Shown here: in pieces, positions 1 to 13,385 of the stretch
How the letters are laid out: the number at the start of each line of letters is the position of its first letter
Numbering within the stretch: the stretch's first letter is position 1
NCBI GenBank assembly: GCA_026709065.1
Contig: JAPOTS010000082.1
Location: forward strand, 1-59,891
Source of the DNA: Bacteroidota bacterium
GTDB lineage: Bacteria > Bacteroidota > Rhodothermia > Rhodothermales > Bin80
DNA length: 59,891 nt
Direction: 5' to 3'
Program-made: the position numbers and the translations under genes
Notes under the pieces: model-generated
What the model was told of the DNA's origin: nothing
The model's database searches: none
Seen by the model: the letters and a program-made list of their open reading frames with translations, nothing else

Positions 1-1655
1 GTGGCGGTAAATGCAGTCCGATTATTAATCTTCTCTGGAACATCCGAAATCGTTAATCTTGGCGGGGCTGCATCCCATAACGCCGTCCCAGTTTGTTGGG
101 TGCTTGGTACAGTATATAGGCCGTCGGTCGCAGCATTTTCAGCCACCGATATAACAACATTCTCATTGCCGAATGGCGTAACTGGCAACGAGTAGGTTGT
201 ACCACTACCACTCAATGTCCCTGGCTTAGCACCCGTGACGGTCACGTCACTGGCATCAAATCCCGTCACTGATTTACTAAATGAGAATACAGCCGTAAAC
301 TCAGTTCGATCATTGATCTTATCAGGAACTCCGGCTATACTTAAGGTTGGCGCAACTCCATCCCATACCGCAGTCTGTGATTGTTGTTCACTTGGCCCAG
401 TATTGGCCCCGTCGGTCACTACATCAGCATCTACCGACACGGTTACATTGGCATTTCCATGTGGGTTAATGTACATTGAGTAGCTTGCACCACTGCCTGT
501 AAGATTTGCTGGTTTAGCACCCGTAACGGTCACGTCACTCGCCGTAAACCCCGTGACAGATTCATCAAATGTGAAGTAAACCCTAAATGATGCATCCGTA
601 TTGATCTTGTCTGGCATTCCCGAAATACTCAAAGTTGGAGCGGTTTTATCCCAAAGAACTCTCGCGATGACAGGAGTGGCAGGGAATGCTAGAATTCCAT
701 GTATGGTGACCGCGTGTTTTGCCACAGAGATGAGGACATCGGATTCACCAGTTGGCGTGATCTCCATGCTATACGACTGACCCGTGCCAGTTAAAATACC
801 TTTGGTGCCACCAGTTACAGTGACATCATCTGTATCAAAAGTTGTGACCGGTTCTACAAACGTAAAAGTCACTGAAAACGGGGTTGATGAATTAATTTTT
901 TTAGGATAATTAGTGATAACATCTCTATCAACTACATACGAGGGATACGAACGAGAGAATCCGTCATAATTGCCACCAGAGGCAGTATACGTCATTGTGA
1001 TCCTTTCATTAATTGAATTATCATCAGTGAAAGGAAACACTACCAAATTCTGCTCTATCCACCAATTGTCAGGCGTGAAAGTTAAACCATTACCTTGTAT
1101 GTATATTAAACTGTTGTTGATGGAAAGATCAAGTGTCACTGTTTCAGTTGGCGGAATCGTTAAAACGACCCCGTGTACAATCGCTACGCCTTCTTCAAGA
1201 GTAGGGATTTCATGGTATATCATAGGAGTACTATATTCGTCAATGATAACCACATTCAGTTCTTTTACAATGCTATCAAACCCACCCCCTGATGCAGTAA
1301 CCTGAAGTGTTATTTGATCATTTTCGGTATCTGCATCTGCCAATATATTATAGGATACAATTTGTTCTAAATTCCAGTCAGAAGTTGTGAAAGTCAACGA
1401 TGTGCTAGACTCATCAGGAAAAATGATATCTTCCCCTACATGACCTGAAATGGTGACTGTTACTTCGTCTGCGGGTTTTTCCCCCAATCTTAATTTGAAA
1501 CTCCTTTCATCGGCTCCCCTAAACGGCTCACTATAAGTAATTGTTTCTGTGGGGTTAGTACCATTATTGATGGCAAAGGATTGAGCGAATGCATCGTTAT
1601 TCAGGATGATGCTGATGCATAGAATCACACAGAGTCTTTCCAACAAAATTTTCAT
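1..1655 (-). CDS. Secreted multi-repeat Ig-like surface protein (partial, C-terminus beyond window)
   Basis: An open frame runs leftward from an ATG at 1655 and leaves the window without a stop, so about 551 codons are visible. It begins with a signal peptide (positively charged start, hydrophobic core, cleavage near AFAQS). Two modules follow that end in ASGGG/ASGGN and have a TFTxxxW core, resembling the Calx-beta-like repeats of Rhodothermota surface proteins. At least three bacterial Ig-like modules come next, with the recurring pattern SVTGF.ASDVTVTGAKP...L.GSG..YS. They repeat about every 96 residues, and the DNA repeats with them (GGTCACGTCACT near 240 and 530). The likely role is an extracellular adhesin or surface-layer component; the enzymatic or anchoring part, if any, is not visible. 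Function is inferred from architecture only. Confidence 0.8.
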   Translation of the reverse strand, partial: MKILLERLCVILCISIILNNDAFAQSFAINNGTNPTETITYSEPFRGADERSFKLRLGEKPADEVTVTISGHVGEDIIFPDESSTSLTFTTSDWNLEQIVSYNILADADTENDQITLQVTASGGGFDSIVKELNVVIIDEYSTPMIYHEIPTLEEGVAIVHGVVLTIPPTETVTLDLSINNSLIYIQGNGLTFTPDNWWIEQNLVVFPFTDDNSINERITMTYTASGGNYDGFSRSYPSYVVDRDVITNYPKKINSSTPFSVTFTFVEPVTTFDTDDVTVTGGTKGILTGTGQSYSMEITPTGESDVLISVAKHAVTIHGILAFPATPVIARVLWDKTAPTLSISGMPDKINTDASFRVYFTFDESVTGFTASDVTVTGAKPANLTGSGASYSMYINPHGNANVTVSVDADVVTDGANTGPSEQQSQTAVWDGVAPTLSIAGVPDKINDRTEFTAVFSFSKSVTGFDASDVTVTGAKPGTLSGSGTTYSLPVTPFGNENVVISVAENAATDGLYTVPSTQQTGTALWDAAPPRLTISDVPEKINNRTAFTA

Positions 1656-1736
1656 CTCATCTTCAAATCTTGTCCAACATTATCGGCAAAATATTACAAC
1701 GAGAATCAACGCAATACTTGCGATTAATTCATTAAT

Positions 1737-1759
1737 TTTTCATCCTGTTTGGATGAAAA
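1737..1759. terminator. Perfect 9-bp stem-loop, possible bidirectional terminator
   Basis: TTTTCATCC (1737-1745) pairs with GGATGAAAA (1751-1759) across a 5-base loop. T and A runs flank the stem on either side. It lies between the tnpB element and the leftward Ig-like gene, and could end transcripts leaving the element. It could also be a chance hairpin in AT-rich DNA. Confidence 0.35.
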
Positions 1760-1852
1760 TGAAGATCACAAATAATTAAAACGAACTTCTTAATCTATTG
1801 ACATGGCGGTTGGTTCTATTTGGTTTCGTTAAAAATGTGTTAAGCTACCTTA

Positions 1853-1874
1853 GGGAATTATATACGTGAGTGCC
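1853..1874 (+). repeat. Terminal inverted repeat, left end of tnpB element
   Basis: 22 bp, exactly complementary to 3233-3254. The outer 19 bases GGGAATTATATACGTGAGT are shared with the right end of the MmeI element; its left end differs only in the first base. Confidence 0.9.
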
Positions 1875-1877
1875 ATC

Positions 1878-3227
1878 TCAGACGAACAACCCAAACGTAT
1901 CCATTTCACGTATCATAGGGGTTCCTAACGGAAACGCCCCTCCTCGTGCAGCAGCCCCAATCCCGGAGGCCAATATATTCGCAGACGAATTATAGTCCGC
2001 ATGATCCGTATAACCACACGCTATACACTTAAACTTACTCTGAGTCTTTCTATTCTCCTTACTCGTATATCCACACTTACTGCAACGCTGGCTCGTATAC
2101 TTCGGATCTACAAGAATTATCATACCTATCTTGTAGTCGCAATACTTATTGAACCTCCCCCAAGACGCATTTAAGATCACTCGGTTTAGCCCAGACTTCT
2201 GCCTTACATTTGTTCCTGGATTCTCTATCGTTCCCTTAGCAGACTTGGACATATTCTCGATCTTCAAGTCTTCTCGTATCAATACCTGCGCACGATTCGC
2301 TAACGCCCGACTATTCTGATGATCTTGATTCTTTCTCGCGTTTCTTTGTTGTCTTTTTAACTTGGAAATCTTTCTCTGAGTATCCTTATATCTGCCCGAT
2401 CCTTTCTGTTGTCTGGCCAACTTACGTTGATACCTACGAATCTTTATTTCCTTTAGGTGTGGCTTCTTGATATCCAGCATACCGCGTTCGCCTTCCGTTG
2501 AAGTCCATGCCACGTTGCACGTGTTCAGATCAATACCGATGGCAACACCGTTCTCTGTTGTTTTCAACGTTGGTATTTTATATAAGACGCTCATTTTCCA
2601 GTACCTGCCATCTTTCTTGACGGTTAGCTCAATGGGTTCTCCGTCTGGATAAGGATTGCCCCCTTTCCTACGGAACTTCATCCACCCAACTTTCTGAATA
2701 TAAACGCTATTGTCTACAATTTTGAACGCCCCTTTTGGCGCTGTAAATGAATTGTGCTGGAATCTATTATGAAACGTAGGATGCTTTCGCTTTCCTTTAA
2801 AGAATGCAATCCAAGCATCAGACTGGTTGAATAACGTAAATCGTACAATCGCAGATGAGTACTTGGATAACCAGCCTATCTCCTTCCGTAAAGACGGATA
2901 ACGGGTGATCAGGCTGAACCGTGATACATTTGGCTTATCTGATCCCGTTTCCTTTGATTGACTGTACTCTTCGTTGACTTGTCCAAGGATCACATTCCAC
3001 ACAAACCGACATGCACCACAAAGCCCAGATAATAGATTGGCTTTTTCTTGTGTACCTGGGCATAAACGGTACGTGATTCCTCTAAAGGAACTTTCTTGGC
3101 CTTTTTTGTTAGAATGTTTCTTAACAGACATGATATCAAGGTTAGTTGATGTTGTGGTAAGCAATAGGGTAGACGCTAATTCTATCCTATTGTGTCTGTT
3201 AAACATTTCCAAATAAAAAGGTTCCAT
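1878..3227 (-). CDS. tnpB: TnpB-family RNA-guided DNA endonuclease (OrfB/IS605 type)
   Basis: TnpB is a compact RuvC-type nuclease guided by an omega-RNA made from the 3' end of its own gene. The N-terminal OrfB helix-turn-helix region includes CGACRFVWN near residue 70. The RuvC catalytic set appears complete: D233 in GIDLN, E319 in LIRED and D411 in DHADYNSS. A four-cysteine zinc ribbon (CSKC...CIAC, residues 382-404) sits between the last two. The first 32 residues are atypical of the family, and a more likely start is the internal ATG at 3131 (MSVKKHSNKK); neither has a clear ribosome site. The omega-RNA would overlap the 3' end of the gene and finish at the repeat near 1853, taking its guide from DNA just below 1853. 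The protein looks intact and potentially active. Confidence 0.9.
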   Translation of the reverse strand: MEPFYLEMFNRHNRIELASTLLLTTTSTNLDIMSVKKHSNKKGQESSFRGITYRLCPGTQEKANLLSGLCGACRFVWNVILGQVNEEYSQSKETGSDKPNVSRFSLITRYPSLRKEIGWLSKYSSAIVRFTLFNQSDAWIAFFKGKRKHPTFHNRFQHNSFTAPKGAFKIVDNSVYIQKVGWMKFRRKGGNPYPDGEPIELTVKKDGRYWKMSVLYKIPTLKTTENGVAIGIDLNTCNVAWTSTEGERGMLDIKKPHLKEIKIRRYQRKLARQQKGSGRYKDTQRKISKLKRQQRNARKNQDHQNSRALANRAQVLIREDLKIENMSKSAKGTIENPGTNVRQKSGLNRVILNASWGRFNKYCDYKIGMIILVDPKYTSQRCSKCGYTSKENRKTQSKFKCIACGYTDHADYNSSANILASGIGAAARGGAFPLGTPMIREMDTFGLFV

Positions 3228-3232
3228 TCTGG

Positions 3233-3254
3233 GGCACTCACGTATATAATTCCC
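3233..3254 (-). repeat. Terminal inverted repeat, right end of tnpB element
   Basis: Perfect inverse copy of 1853-1874, ending at the outer boundary base 3254. Confidence 0.9.
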
Positions 3255-3971
3255 CTACTTTTCATAGTGCTTCACAAACTCAATACACTTGTATTGACCG
3301 AAAAAACACTCCTCTGCATAGTCAATGATCTTAGGATGTTCCTCCAACCTACAACTTCATCAGTCCTTCCAAAATGAATTCAATATTGATTGTTTCCTGG
3401 GAATTTCCGCATAGTTTGTTATTTCCAACGACCATATGGTTTTATTAGGGGCTTGATTTACAGGATTCCCGCCGTTTTGGGTAATGTTGTGTCGGATTCT
3501 GTATGATTTGTGATTGGATCAGGTGGTGTCACAACATTAGGTTAAATTTTTGAATTTCCCATGTGATTGACAAGGCAAATGCCAGACTTACAATTATGCA
3601 AAATCAAAAGTAAAATGAGTCATTCTGATGAACAATTTTTTCATCGAATCATCTTCTATAAAATGCATCCATATCAAATCCTCTCTCTTCTACCTAATAG
3701 CCCATCATTGCATGGATTCTTGGTGATCTAACCAGTGGTTTGGGCATAATTTCTTCGTTATCTGGAGCAGAGAAATTGTCAAATACAGTGAATATACATT
3801 CGCCAAGTTCTGACGATTAAGAATCCCAGTCTTTGTCTTACTTTACCTATTGGCAAGGCAAATCCATGAAGTTTTTACAGCTATTTCCTATCATTCACAA
3901 TCAAATGTAGGGCTGATCTTCGGAAACCATACACTCGGATCTTCAAGAGTCCATCTATCATTTTCAAGAAC
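3255..3971. other. Intergenic spacer with a short coding-like fragment
   Basis: No full gene is supported here. On the minus strand about 33 codons (roughly 3258-3357) read as protein-like sequence (LEEHPKIIDYAEECFF..., ending KHYEK). They stop at the very junction with the tnpB element and have in-frame stops just upstream, so this may be the tail of a decayed gene. The rest is AT-rich with nothing recognisable. Confidence 0.3.
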
Positions 3972-5111
3972 CTATAGTCGCATCACTCCAGCTTCTATCC
4001 CTGAACCAAGAATATATGCGAATACGGATTGGTCATAATGCAAATGAGTCACTCGTGTAATTGATTCTGCAATCATTTCTGGTTTAGTAGCTTCCACTAA
4101 ATTAATTGTACATCCCCCAAACCCTCCTCCCATCATTCTTGCCCCAAAAACACCCTTGAGAGACTCTGCATGCCTTACGATAAAATCCAATTCCTCACAA
4201 CTCACCTCGTAATCATCCCTTAAACTGCGATGTGACGCACTTAAATGCACTCCCAAACTATTCCAATCTAACTGCTCAATTGCATCACGAGCTTGGATCA
4301 CACGTGCATTTTCATTTAATACATGTCTGATGCGTTGACGTAAAATAGGATCCTTTAATTGACCTAAATGATGTAATTCAATATCTCGAACAGAGTGGAC
4401 TCTCGGGTATCGACTCTGAATAGTTTTTAGCGCGTTTTGACATTCTTCCCGACGCTCATTGTACTTAGAATGAGCAAGTTGTCGCTTTACCCTACTATCA
4501 ACAACACAGATTTTTATCTCTGGGCTTCCAAATGGAATATGCTCCCATTCCAATAACTGACAGTCCAATAATAATGCATGATCTGAGCGGCCAACTCTGG
4601 ATACTATTTGATCCATGATTCCACATTTGACATTCACATATTGATGTTCAACTTTTTGACCGACCTGTGCAAGTTTAAGAGGTGACATCGAGATGCCTCT
4701 CAACTCCTCCAATGCAAGACCTACCGCTATTTCTAATGCAGCAGAAGAGCTCAACCCTGCACCATCAGGGATGTCTCCTATGATCAACATCTCTACTGGA
4801 CAAGGCGGAGGTATCTCACGAATCATACCTGCAACATACGTCGCCCAATGCGCAGTTGGGATATTGGGCCATTGATTGACTTCAAATTTGATTTCCTCGT
4901 TGAAGTTCTCAGAGCGAAGATGGTATAAGTCGGAATCCACTACGCGCGCGGCAACGTAAATTGCCCGATCCAAAATCATGGGCAATACGAAGCCCTCATT
5001 GTAATCGGTATGATCCCCAATGAGATTTACTCGGCCGGGAGCACATGAGACAATCAAACCTTCTGCATTTCCCTTCCAACTCCCAAATGCATTAATTATT
5101 TTCTGATTCAT
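3972..5111 (-). CDS. galK: Galactokinase
   Basis: Phosphorylates alpha-D-galactose to galactose-1-phosphate with ATP, the first Leloir pathway step, in the cytoplasm. At 379 aa it matches the usual family length. The galactokinase signature APGRVNLIGDHTDYN lies near residues 25-39, the GHMP kinase ATP loop GLSSSAALE near 119-127, and the C-terminal GHMP motif GARMMGGGFGG near 323-333. The ATG at 5111 begins MNQKII. No other galactose gene is adjacent, so it appears to be a stand-alone unit. Confidence 0.95.
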   Translation of the reverse strand: MNQKIINAFGSWKGNAEGLIVSCAPGRVNLIGDHTDYNEGFVLPMILDRAIYVAARVVDSDLYHLRSENFNEEIKFEVNQWPNIPTAHWATYVAGMIREIPPPCPVEMLIIGDIPDGAGLSSSAALEIAVGLALEELRGISMSPLKLAQVGQKVEHQYVNVKCGIMDQIVSRVGRSDHALLLDCQLLEWEHIPFGSPEIKICVVDSRVKRQLAHSKYNERREECQNALKTIQSRYPRVHSVRDIELHHLGQLKDPILRQRIRHVLNENARVIQARDAIEQLDWNSLGVHLSASHRSLRDDYEVSCEELDFIVRHAESLKGVFGARMMGGGFGGCTINLVEATKPEMIAESITRVTHLHYDQSVFAYILGSGIEAGVMRL

Positions 5112-10426: not shown

Positions 10427-10434
10427 AAAAATTA
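10427..10434 (+). repeat. Target-site duplication, left copy
   Basis: AAAAATTA abuts the outer end of the left terminal repeat and is identical to 13378-13385 beyond the right end. A perfect 8-bp duplication is the footprint of DDE-transposase insertion. Confidence 0.85.
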
Positions 10435-10460
10435 AGGAATTATATACGTGAGTAACCAAG
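10435..10460 (+). repeat. Terminal inverted repeat, left end of MmeI element
   Basis: 25 of 26 bases complementary to 13352-13377. Starts AGGAATTATATACGTGAGT and continues AACCAAG. Confidence 0.92.
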
Positions 10461-10488
10461 TTTTACCGAAAGCAAGTGAAGAAACCTA

Positions 10489-13262
10489 ATGCGTCTTTCA
10501 TGGAATGAGGTCCGAATCCGAGCGAGCAAATTCTCTGAGGAATGGAGCGAGGCTGTCTACGAAAAGGGAGAAACTCAGAGTTTCTATAACGATTTTTTTG
10601 AAATCTTCGGTGTTCGGCGCCGTAGTGTTGCTCGTTATGAAGAGCATGTAGCGAAACTCAACAATCGGACCGGATTTATTGATCTGTTTTGGCCAGGTGT
10701 CCTGATGGTTGAACAGAAAAGTGCGGGTCGTGATCTCAAGGCTGCCTATGAACAGGCAGGGGAATACTTTGATAGCCTTCCAGAAAGCAAGCGTCCCCGT
10801 TATATCTTGGTGAGTGATTTTCAAACCTTTGAACTTCACGATCTGTCAGAGCGAGAAGTAGTTTCCTTTGCTCTAACAGAGTTGTCCTTCAATGTAGAAG
10901 TATTCGGCTTCATTCTTGGGGTTCAGAGTCGAACTTTTCGAGATCAGAATCCAGCGAATATCAGGGCATCTGAATTAGTTGGATGTCTGCACGATAGGCT
11001 TGAAGAAGCTGGTTATCTTGGACATGATCTGGAGCGACTCCTTGTTCGGATTGTTTTTTGTTTGTTTGGGGATGACACTGGAATTTTTGAACCCCGTGAC
11101 ATATTTCTGGACTTCATTGAGGAGCGTACCAGAGAAGATGGTCTTGATCTCGGTCCTTTGTTGATACAATTGTTTGAGATTCTTAACACACCGAAGGAGC
11201 AGCGTTCAAGTAAATTGGACGAGGATCTCAACCGATTCCCCTATATCAATGGGGACTTGTTTGAGGGTTCACTTCAAACCCCTTCGTTCGATTCCGATAT
11301 GCGCCAAGCTTTAATTGATGCTTGCATGTTCGACTGGTCAGAGATCTCTCCCGCGATCTTTGGTGCTCTGTTTCAATCGGTGATGGATCCACAGGAGCGT
11401 CGTACACATGGGGCTCATTATACAACCGAAAAGAATATCCTCAAGGTAATTGAACCACTTTTCCTAGATGATCTGCGAAGTGATTTTGATCGACTGCGAT
11501 CCCGTGGAGATACCCGAAGGCTCACAGAGCTAAGACGGTTTCATCAGAAATTGGGGCAGATGTGCTTTTTTGATCCCGCTTGCGGATGTGGCAACTTTCT
11601 CATTATTGCATATAGGGAGTTGCGCCTACTTGAGATAGAGGTTTTGAAAGAAATACGCAAGAGTCTGAGTAGAGAGGGGCAGAGAGATCTTGAAGCATCC
11701 ACCTTTCTCTGATTAACGTAGATCAATTTTTTGGCATTGAGATCAGTGAATTTCCGGTTCGTATTGCCGAGACTGCATTGTGGATGATGGACCACATCAT
11801 GAATAATCGTCTCAGTCTTGAATTCGGTGAGACATTCACTAGAATTCCGCTGGAAGCTTCACCTAGTATTATTCACGGGGATGCGCTGGAAATTGACTGG
11901 AACAATGTCCTTCCGGCGAAGAATTGTTCTTTTGTATTTGGAAACCCCCCATTTATAGGGTCTAAATATCAAAGCGAGACTCAGCGTACACAAGTGCATC
12001 GAATTTCCGCAATGGGCAGAAGAGGATCACTCGATTATGTGGCTGCATGGTTTATTAAGGCGGGAGAGTATATCGCTACGGACGGGGAAGGACGAATCGC
12101 ATTTGTAGCAACCAATTCAATTACACAGGGGGAACAGATAGGGCAGTTGTGGCCGATTCTGTTTGAGCGTTGTAGGATCGATATTTCATTTGCCCATCAA
12201 ACCTTTGCATGGGGATCGGATGCAAGGGGTAAGGCACATGTACATGTGGTCATCATTGGTCTCGACTATCAGGAACGGGTGCGGGCGGAGAAGCGTCTGT
12301 TCAGCTACCCCAATATTCAAAGTGAACCGCTTGAAAGCAATCATTCCGCACTTTCCCCGTACTTGTTTGATGCCAGTGGTCTGGTCAATCCACATCTCAT
12401 CGTTCGTTCTGAACGCCGCCCCATTAATGGGCTCAGGCAGCTGAAAACTGGCGTACAGATGATCGATAATGGCCTGCTTACCTTTCATCAGGATGAAAAA
12501 GACGCTTTTCTTGCAGCTGAGCCTCTAGCTTCTGACTACTTCCAGAAATATATTGGCGGAGATGAATTCATCAACGGTTTTTACCGATGGATACTTTATC
12601 TCAGGAACATCAAACCATCGGATTTGAGAAAATTGCCTTTAGTAGCCCAGCGAATTTCTCAGGTACGAACTTATCGTGCTACAAGTCAGCGACCAAGCAC
12701 GCGGCGAATGGCTGACTTTCCTACTCTTGTAGGTGTAGATGAACGCCTAGATACCAACTATTTAGTTATCCCAAATACAAGTTCGGAGCGCCGTGAATAC
12801 GTCCCAATGGGATACCTGAGCCCGAACGTAATTGCAAACCAGAAGCTTCGGATTTTACCCAGTGCGACTCTCGGCGAATTTGGGTTACTTACATCAGCTA
12901 TGCATATGGCGTGGATGCGCGCTGTCACGGGGCGTTTGGAGAGCCGTTACATGTATTCTGTGGGGGTCGTCTATAACACGTTTCCGTTGCCACCGACAGA
13001 TACTGATATAGCAACGCTTGAACCTCTTGCAAAAGCCATCTTAGATACTCGTGCCGCCTATCCAGATGCAACACTGGCCGATCTGTATGATCCAAACTTC
13101 ATGCCGCCAGATCTTCGTCAAGCACACCAGAAGTTGGATCAAGCGGTGGATAAACTGTACCGCCGCCAGCATTTTGATTCAGAGCGAGATCGGATTGAAT
13201 ATCTTTTCTTCCTCTACGAGAAAATGCATACGCCACTTATAGACCCTTCAAAAGCGAGATAA
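10489..13262 (+). pseudogene. MmeI-family Type IIL restriction-methyltransferase, frameshifted
   Basis: A single-chain enzyme that would methylate one strand of its site and cut downstream. Part one (10489-11714, 407 aa) holds the MmeI-like N-terminal nuclease with D65, E75 and K77 (GFIDLFWP, VEQKS), the helical spacer, and methylase motif I in FFDPACGCGNF. Part two lies in another frame to 13262 and holds the methylase NPPF motif, target-recognition domain and C-terminus. Translation jumps frame near 11705: restoring one base before CTTTCTCTGATT yields LSLINVDQFFGIEI, matching the intact paralogue at 42599-45361 (LSLIDVNQFYGIEI). A single-base deletion is the simplest explanation; a programmed shift or assembly error cannot be excluded. 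Apart from this the gene is full length and very similar to the paralogue, so the damage is recent. It is the sole cargo of the transposon around it. Confidence 0.9.
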
Positions 13263-13351
13263 GTGGATTTTCCAAAGATTCTGCTAAACCGCGGGCGTTC
13301 AGATAAAAGTAAAAAATCGAGTAAGATGCACTCTGGAAGCCTCACAATCAC

Positions 13352-13377
13352 CTTGGTTACTCACGTATATAATTCCC
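13352..13377 (-). repeat. Terminal inverted repeat, right end of MmeI element
   Basis: Inverse copy of 10435-10460, with the canonical outer GGG. Followed directly by the AAAAATTA target duplication. Confidence 0.92.
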
Positions 13378-13385
13378 AAAAATTA
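13378..13385 (+). repeat. Target-site duplication, right copy
   Basis: AAAAATTA, identical to 10427-10434. Confidence 0.85.

Follow-up and report, generated by a model that had tools for sequence, protein, structure and literature searches.

A tnpB gene between IS1595-type ends: an apparent non-autonomous passenger cassette with a putative target-adjacent motif outside the target-site duplication

In IS200/IS605 elements of the ISDra2 type, the guide of the TnpB-associated omega-RNA begins at the element boundary (PMC10711439), and the motif recognized beside the target touches the left end of the element. IS607 elements pair TnpB with a transposition chemistry other than that of Y1 transposases; they recombine at matching dinucleotides, and the first flanking base enters the RNA scaffold (PMC10711439). 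TnpB-type nucleases are also found in eukaryotes, where Fanzor1 and Fanzor2* reside in DDE transposons (PMC10711439, PMC3627910), cut-and-paste elements with terminal inverted repeats (TIRs) and target-site duplications (TSDs) whose TIR lies within the guide-RNA scaffold and whose TSD has been reported as absorbed into that scaffold as well (PMC10711439). The subject of this analysis is a tnpB element at positions 1853-3254 of a 59,891-nt stretch of contig JAPOTS010000082.1 (the window, to which all positions refer) from a 3.34-Mb Rhodothermaceae genome (G000), which is best described, judging from its sequence, as a non-autonomous, transposase-less passenger cassette of the IS1595 family. IS1595 members can carry passenger genes, and the window element agrees with this family (DDE_Tnp_IS1595, ISXO2-like), including the mobile insertion cassettes (MIC) and transporter insertion sequences (tIS), in its end family, its 8-bp AT-rich duplication, the transposases of its sister genomes and the placing of passenger genes between the ends; it differs in that its cargo is an RNA-guided nuclease with a guide RNA. 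No paper treating TnpB as cargo of IS1595 or of another bacterial DDE element was found in a literature search whose reach excluded most subscription papers.

The element is 1402 bp long and bounded by fully complementary TIRs (22/22) at 1853-1874 and 3233-3254, the longest and the sole perfect inverted pair within positions 1000-4200. The left end, on the tnpB 5' side (3233-3254), reads GGGAATTATATACGTGAGTGCC on the minus strand, and the right end (1853-1874, minus strand) is its perfect inverted copy. The tnpB open reading frame (ORF; 1878-3227, minus strand, 449 aa) approaches both ends to within a few bases, as the initial annotation had described. It is the only gene encoded between them: the element has no DDE transposase of its own, and neither a Y1 TnpA nor a serine recombinase was found as a second gene in the ORF list of the 1402 bp. 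The absence of a Y1 transposase and of subterminal-hairpin ends, together with the perfect 22-bp TIR and an 8-bp duplication, separates the element from IS200/IS605, and the absence of a recombinase gene and the variable 8-bp duplications separate it from IS607. The flanking 8-mers, CTACCTTA at 1845-1852 beside the right end and CTACTTTT at 3255-3262 beside the left end (TAAGGTAG and AAAAGTAG, respectively, on the tnpB strand), match at 6/8 positions, as had been noted, and are weak evidence of a target duplication taken alone.

Stronger evidence comes from other copies of the ends, which were analysed as stretches around end matches. The 22-bp end sequence has 21 matches with at most three mismatches in the window genome and its reversed control has none, so the recurrence is not due to chance. 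The sequence GGGAATTATATA is present in all ten genomes of the genus (a single match for the control), and near matches to a longer form occur, among 114 genomes of the order, only in this genus and in three other genera of its family. A second tnpB copy in the window genome (G000:C69:38814-40215) differs from the window element at 2/1402 bases (99.86% identity over the body) and lies between two identical 8-bp copies of its target duplication, which read ATTATTTA on the tnpB strand; the other tnpB-like matches in this genome are fragments and were left out. Including this copy, an 8-bp duplication with no more than one mismatch surrounds 19 tnpB elements (the C69 copy and 18 further relatives, 7/8 or 8/8), which backs the reading of the imperfect window flanks as traces of an insertion. 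TSD sequences vary between tnpB copies, and the 8-bp duplications are AT-rich across the end family. One tnpB insertion interrupts a peptidase-like gene; once the element and one copy of the TSD are taken out, the reading frame is restored and can be aligned with uninterrupted homologues over 288 aa, the lengths being equal on the two sides. The assignment to a DDE-type element in preference to IS605 or IS607, proposed at the outset from the window alone, is borne out by these TIRs and duplications, and the family can now be named.

That name rests on the transposases that share the ends. PF12762 transposases were found in 9/10 genomes of the genus; the four that were scanned all match the IS1595 family model NF033547, and 14 elements of the same end family combine a transposase with near-perfect TIRs and an 8-bp duplication. 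The right ends of these elements were located on longer stretches, as passenger genes often push the right end past a 1.5-kb flank. The window ends differ at 1/22 positions both from those of a broken transposase element resident in the same genome and from those of an intact element (L160) in a sister genome (G005), and the ends of tnpB elements in general are often identical at 19-21/22 positions to those of some transposase element of the genus, with a few matching less well. Since the tnpB elements of the end family measure 1086-1430 bp, they are too short to hold a transposase in addition. The window element thus has the TIRs of IS1595-transposase elements and an 8-bp duplication and no DDE transposase of its own, and it is these shared ends and the lack of room that point to a non-autonomous IS1595 cassette. 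It was also observed that very similar TnpBs of one genome (G002) lie within different TIR types (L084 and L086 compared with L078 and L082), and the tnpB cargo therefore seems to have been repackaged there into ends for different transposases.

The cargo itself is apparently an intact RNA-guided nuclease. The window TnpB contains the Pfam domains OrfB_IS605, HTH_OrfB_IS605 and Cas12f1-like_TNB, with an intact zinc ribbon, and the NCBIfam models classify it as a guided TnpB, the IS200/IS605 model fitting better than the IS607 model. The acidic residues of the RuvC triad (D/E/D) are present in the motifs GIDLN, EDL and HAD and align with those of ISDra2 TnpB, in agreement with the initial annotation, which had considered the catalytic residues intact. 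Judged by sequence comparison, the locus combines OrfB_IS605 and TNB domains carrying RuvC D-E-D with a predicted structured 3' omega-RNA and a putative motif directly 5' of the predicted target. With IS200/IS605 it shares the TnpB fold family, the RuvC triad, a scaffold at the 3' end of the gene and a predicted guide start at the boundary.

The omega-RNA scaffold was analysed over positions 1853-2082 of the minus strand, a region overlapping the 3' end of tnpB as well as the right TIR, whose end at 1853 is the predicted 3' end of the scaffold. In the consensus fold derived from an alignment of 16 element 3' ends, 17/44 pairs have changed on both sides; the four key helices, comprising 19 pairs, are paired in 96.1% of cells and include 11 pairs with double changes. 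None of 500 shuffles scored as high, and the signal was lost when the alignment was slid by 1-3 columns, the second of these controls being the one that takes account of relatedness between the sequences, which the shuffles ignore. Helices 2 and 3 form a conserved hairpin, AGGGGCGTTTCCGTTAGGAACCCCT (1917-1941, minus strand), supported by the consensus fold and covariation, and helix 4 forms a terminal hairpin (1862-1900, minus strand) with its right arm inside the TIR (1862-1867) and its left arm in tnpB codons (1895-1900). As the two arms of this terminal hairpin change together with TIR type, the right TIR probably belongs to the scaffold, a feature shared with the Fanzor transposons. The TSD is a different matter: because its sequence varies from copy to copy, it cannot be scaffold and should instead be the start of the guide, which sets this arrangement apart from the Fanzors, as does a motif lying outside the TSD. 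According to the boundary rule for IS200/IS605 TnpB (PMC10711439), the predicted guide of about 20 nt would comprise the TSD and the right flank (TAAGGTAGCTTAACACATTT; 1833-1852, minus strand), with the TSD copy at 1845-1852 supplying its first 8 nt.

Position -9 from the element on the tnpB-5' side, immediately beyond the left duplication, is occupied by G in 20/20 of the tnpB elements whose TIR and TSD were identified, a set chosen by TIR and TSD only and with boundaries taken from TIR/TSD matching. At the same distance on the right side the bases are A7 C4 G4 T5, so that G is read inward in 4/20 (Fisher test, left versus right, 1.5e-7). The comparison set consisted of the 14 transposase elements and four elements with other cargo. 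Transposase elements have G at -9 in 6/14 cases on the gene-5' side (1.7e-4 versus the tnpB left ends) and, read inward, in 4/14 on the other side, and over all ends of non-tnpB elements the count is 13/36 (p = 1.5e-6 versus the tnpB left ends). When left ends with at most three mismatches are counted, including those without a verifiable duplication, G occupies -9 in 33/34; left ends with four mismatches gave several spurious sites (e.g., L049, L069, L079, L129, and L218) and fall outside this count, and one three-mismatch left end (L190, at 1228) is probably spurious too, the duplication-verified end of that locus at 1420 also having G. One remote TnpB element (L203), whose ends are of another kind (TIR GGCTCATATTTAG), carries A just beyond its duplication; it was not counted, as it does not fall within the GGG end family. 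The neighbouring bases seem to follow TnpB lineage: in the window clade (G000, G001, and G002) T precedes G in 9/9 copies and A precedes T in 8/9 (TG 9/9, NATG 8/9), while in five sister-clade copies (G004, G007, and G008) the base before G is G or A. In the window the putative target-adjacent motif (TAM) is TATG on the tnpB strand (3263-3266, minus strand), directly outside the left duplication.

The position of this motif becomes intelligible when the empty site is considered. If the guide starts with the duplication, which is present as a single copy in the empty site, then the G at -9 would stand directly 5' of the guide target there, in the usual TAM register. The initial annotation had supposed that mobilization by a DDE transposase would break the usual link between TnpB motif and insertion site; that supposition is not supported, as the link appears to be displaced by the length of the duplication. 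The constant motif at the tnpB 5' flank that had been proposed for a search among other copies does exist as the G found in every tnpB copy with identified ends and duplication, but it stands 8 bp off and does not touch the end as it does in IS200/IS605. Nor are an IS605-type motif and an 8-bp duplication alternatives to each other, as had been assumed, since both are present at the same insertions.

The interpretation favoured here, with a probability of roughly 0.78, is that the element is a non-autonomous IS1595 cassette moved in trans, whose TnpB would re-cut the TAM-flanked empty site and so retain the element. IS1595 DDE transposases would act in trans on the inverted GGGAATTATATA-type ends and leave 8-bp AT-rich duplications. 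The cargo would consist of TnpB and an omega-RNA with a scaffold that extends across the 3' end of tnpB and into the right TIR, and with a guide that, from the element boundary onward, copies the duplication and the right flank. An empty site, whether not yet entered by the element or precisely vacated by it, would have directly 5' of the guide target those bases which flank the left duplication of the inserted element, and these would act as the TAM, with G in its last position and ATG in this clade. TnpB would cut this TAM-bearing empty allele, and repair from an element-bearing (sister) copy would restore the element; the inserted allele would be spared, as the element separates the TAM from the target. 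Insertions lacking a TAM would be unprotected and lost, and nearly all surviving tnpB copies would for that reason have the G. Several observations weigh against this interpretation. The window TSD matches at only 6/8 positions although the body of the element shares 99.86% identity with that of a copy whose TSD is perfect, a mismatch that could stem from gene conversion, homing replacement or assembly error, and the transposase copies found resident in the window genome look broken. All clades share no more of the motif than a single G, which is short for a TAM, its clade-specific extension is based on few sites per clade, and at the exceptional left end (L123), which is ambiguous by 1 bp, the G is found only in the alternative register.

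Alternatively, the IS1595 transposase might itself favour G at -9 in its targets, and do so at one end of the element and not the other, with TnpB as an idle passenger. The transposase may indeed prefer G or C at this position, as G/C lies beside the duplication on 21/28 sides of transposase elements, but these elements show G in 6/14 cases on the gene-5' side and 4/14 on the other, compared with 20/20 and 4/20 for tnpB elements. The same G is, moreover, common to tnpB elements of different TIR types in three bacterial groups, the base next to it tracks TnpB clade, and compensatory changes maintain the RNA structure. This explanation is accordingly considered unlikely, and transposase preference as the sole cause of the G is unsupported by the 14 transposase elements and the four with other cargo.

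Less likely still is that TnpB and its omega-RNA, bound to a TAM, direct insertion by the DDE transposase to a position 8 bp from it, which would make the motif a guide-independent targeting signal and not the outcome of a survival filter. Such steering would account for a motif in one exact register and orientation in nearly all tnpB copies without calling for very strong selection. The guide, however, derives from the flank of the previous insertion and does not correspond to the new site; for this reason only PAM-like (protospacer-adjacent-motif-like) scanning without guide pairing could work, and the tnpB element contains no dedicated coupling gene. To our knowledge, target choice by such scanning is not known for TnpB. 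Hardly any weight is given to a degraded IS605 or IS607 element that acquired its inverted ends by chance or through the nested insertion of another repeat: its one attraction is the closer fit of the protein to the IS200/IS605 model, and it is ruled out because many independent copies combine TIRs with 8-bp duplications that vary in sequence and are mostly perfect, and because transposases and restriction genes are enclosed by the same ends.

Other cargo of the end family is present in the window itself. A second cassette with the same ends, identified by end search, TSD and domain search (10435-13377, plus strand), is flanked by a perfect 8-bp duplication, AAAAATTA (10427-10434 and 13378-13385), and contains an MmeI-type IIG restriction-modification gene as two ORFs (10489-11712 and 11778-13262), a split that is probably due to a frameshift near 11,712. 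Single ends of the family elsewhere in the window genome adjoin a methyltransferase gene, AAA ATPase genes, and degenerate tnpB and transposase genes. AAA_16-like ATPase genes stand beside family ends at five loci (L033, L034, L035, L040, and L044) and are possibly another recurrent cargo. In sister genomes, intact IS1595 transposase elements with perfect or near-perfect TIRs and TSDs (L160, L163, L164, L168, L171, L174, L176, and others) have extra genes behind the transposase, several of which are DNA methyltransferase- or restriction-like. Two 39-bp palindromes, each joining a complete end to an incomplete inverted one (L026:7472-7510 and L028:8876-8914), show no TSD and are possibly minimal relics resembling miniature inverted-repeat transposable elements (MITEs).

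The tnpB cassette of the window type is present in the Rhodothermaceae genus examined here. Related tnpB elements bounded by GGG-type ends, mostly flanked by 8-bp duplications, also occur in metagenome-assembled genomes (MAGs) of Gammaproteobacteria and Alphaproteobacteria, the isolate names of many of which suggest a sponge or reef origin. MAG contigs frequently stop within elements of this kind. One tnpB insertion site is common to two species (L063 in G005; L069 and L064 in G003), which suggests long retention. The two flanks of this insertion are split between contigs in G003, where they are connected to other copies, through either recombination or misassembly.

In IS605 elements the target motif of the transposase is also the TAM of TnpB, and a role of the motif in retention is therefore inseparable from the need of the transposase for it. 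In the present family the transposase has no need of the motif, which is missing from more than half of the transposase-bearing relatives, and yet nearly all tnpB insertions have it at the offset of the duplication, so that the family would constitute a natural experiment for the homing or retention role of TnpB. The arrangement would also be a third solution, next to those of IS607 and Fanzor, to the problem of adapting a guide RNA to a transposase, and TAMs for such systems would be predicted from the flanks at an 8-bp offset; mining restricted to the bases touching an element would miss them. Restriction-modification genes, which likewise cut DNA and are able to penalize loss, may serve retention by addiction within the same end family, although this is speculation, and their presence as cargo suggests a need shared by the cargo of cut-and-paste elements.
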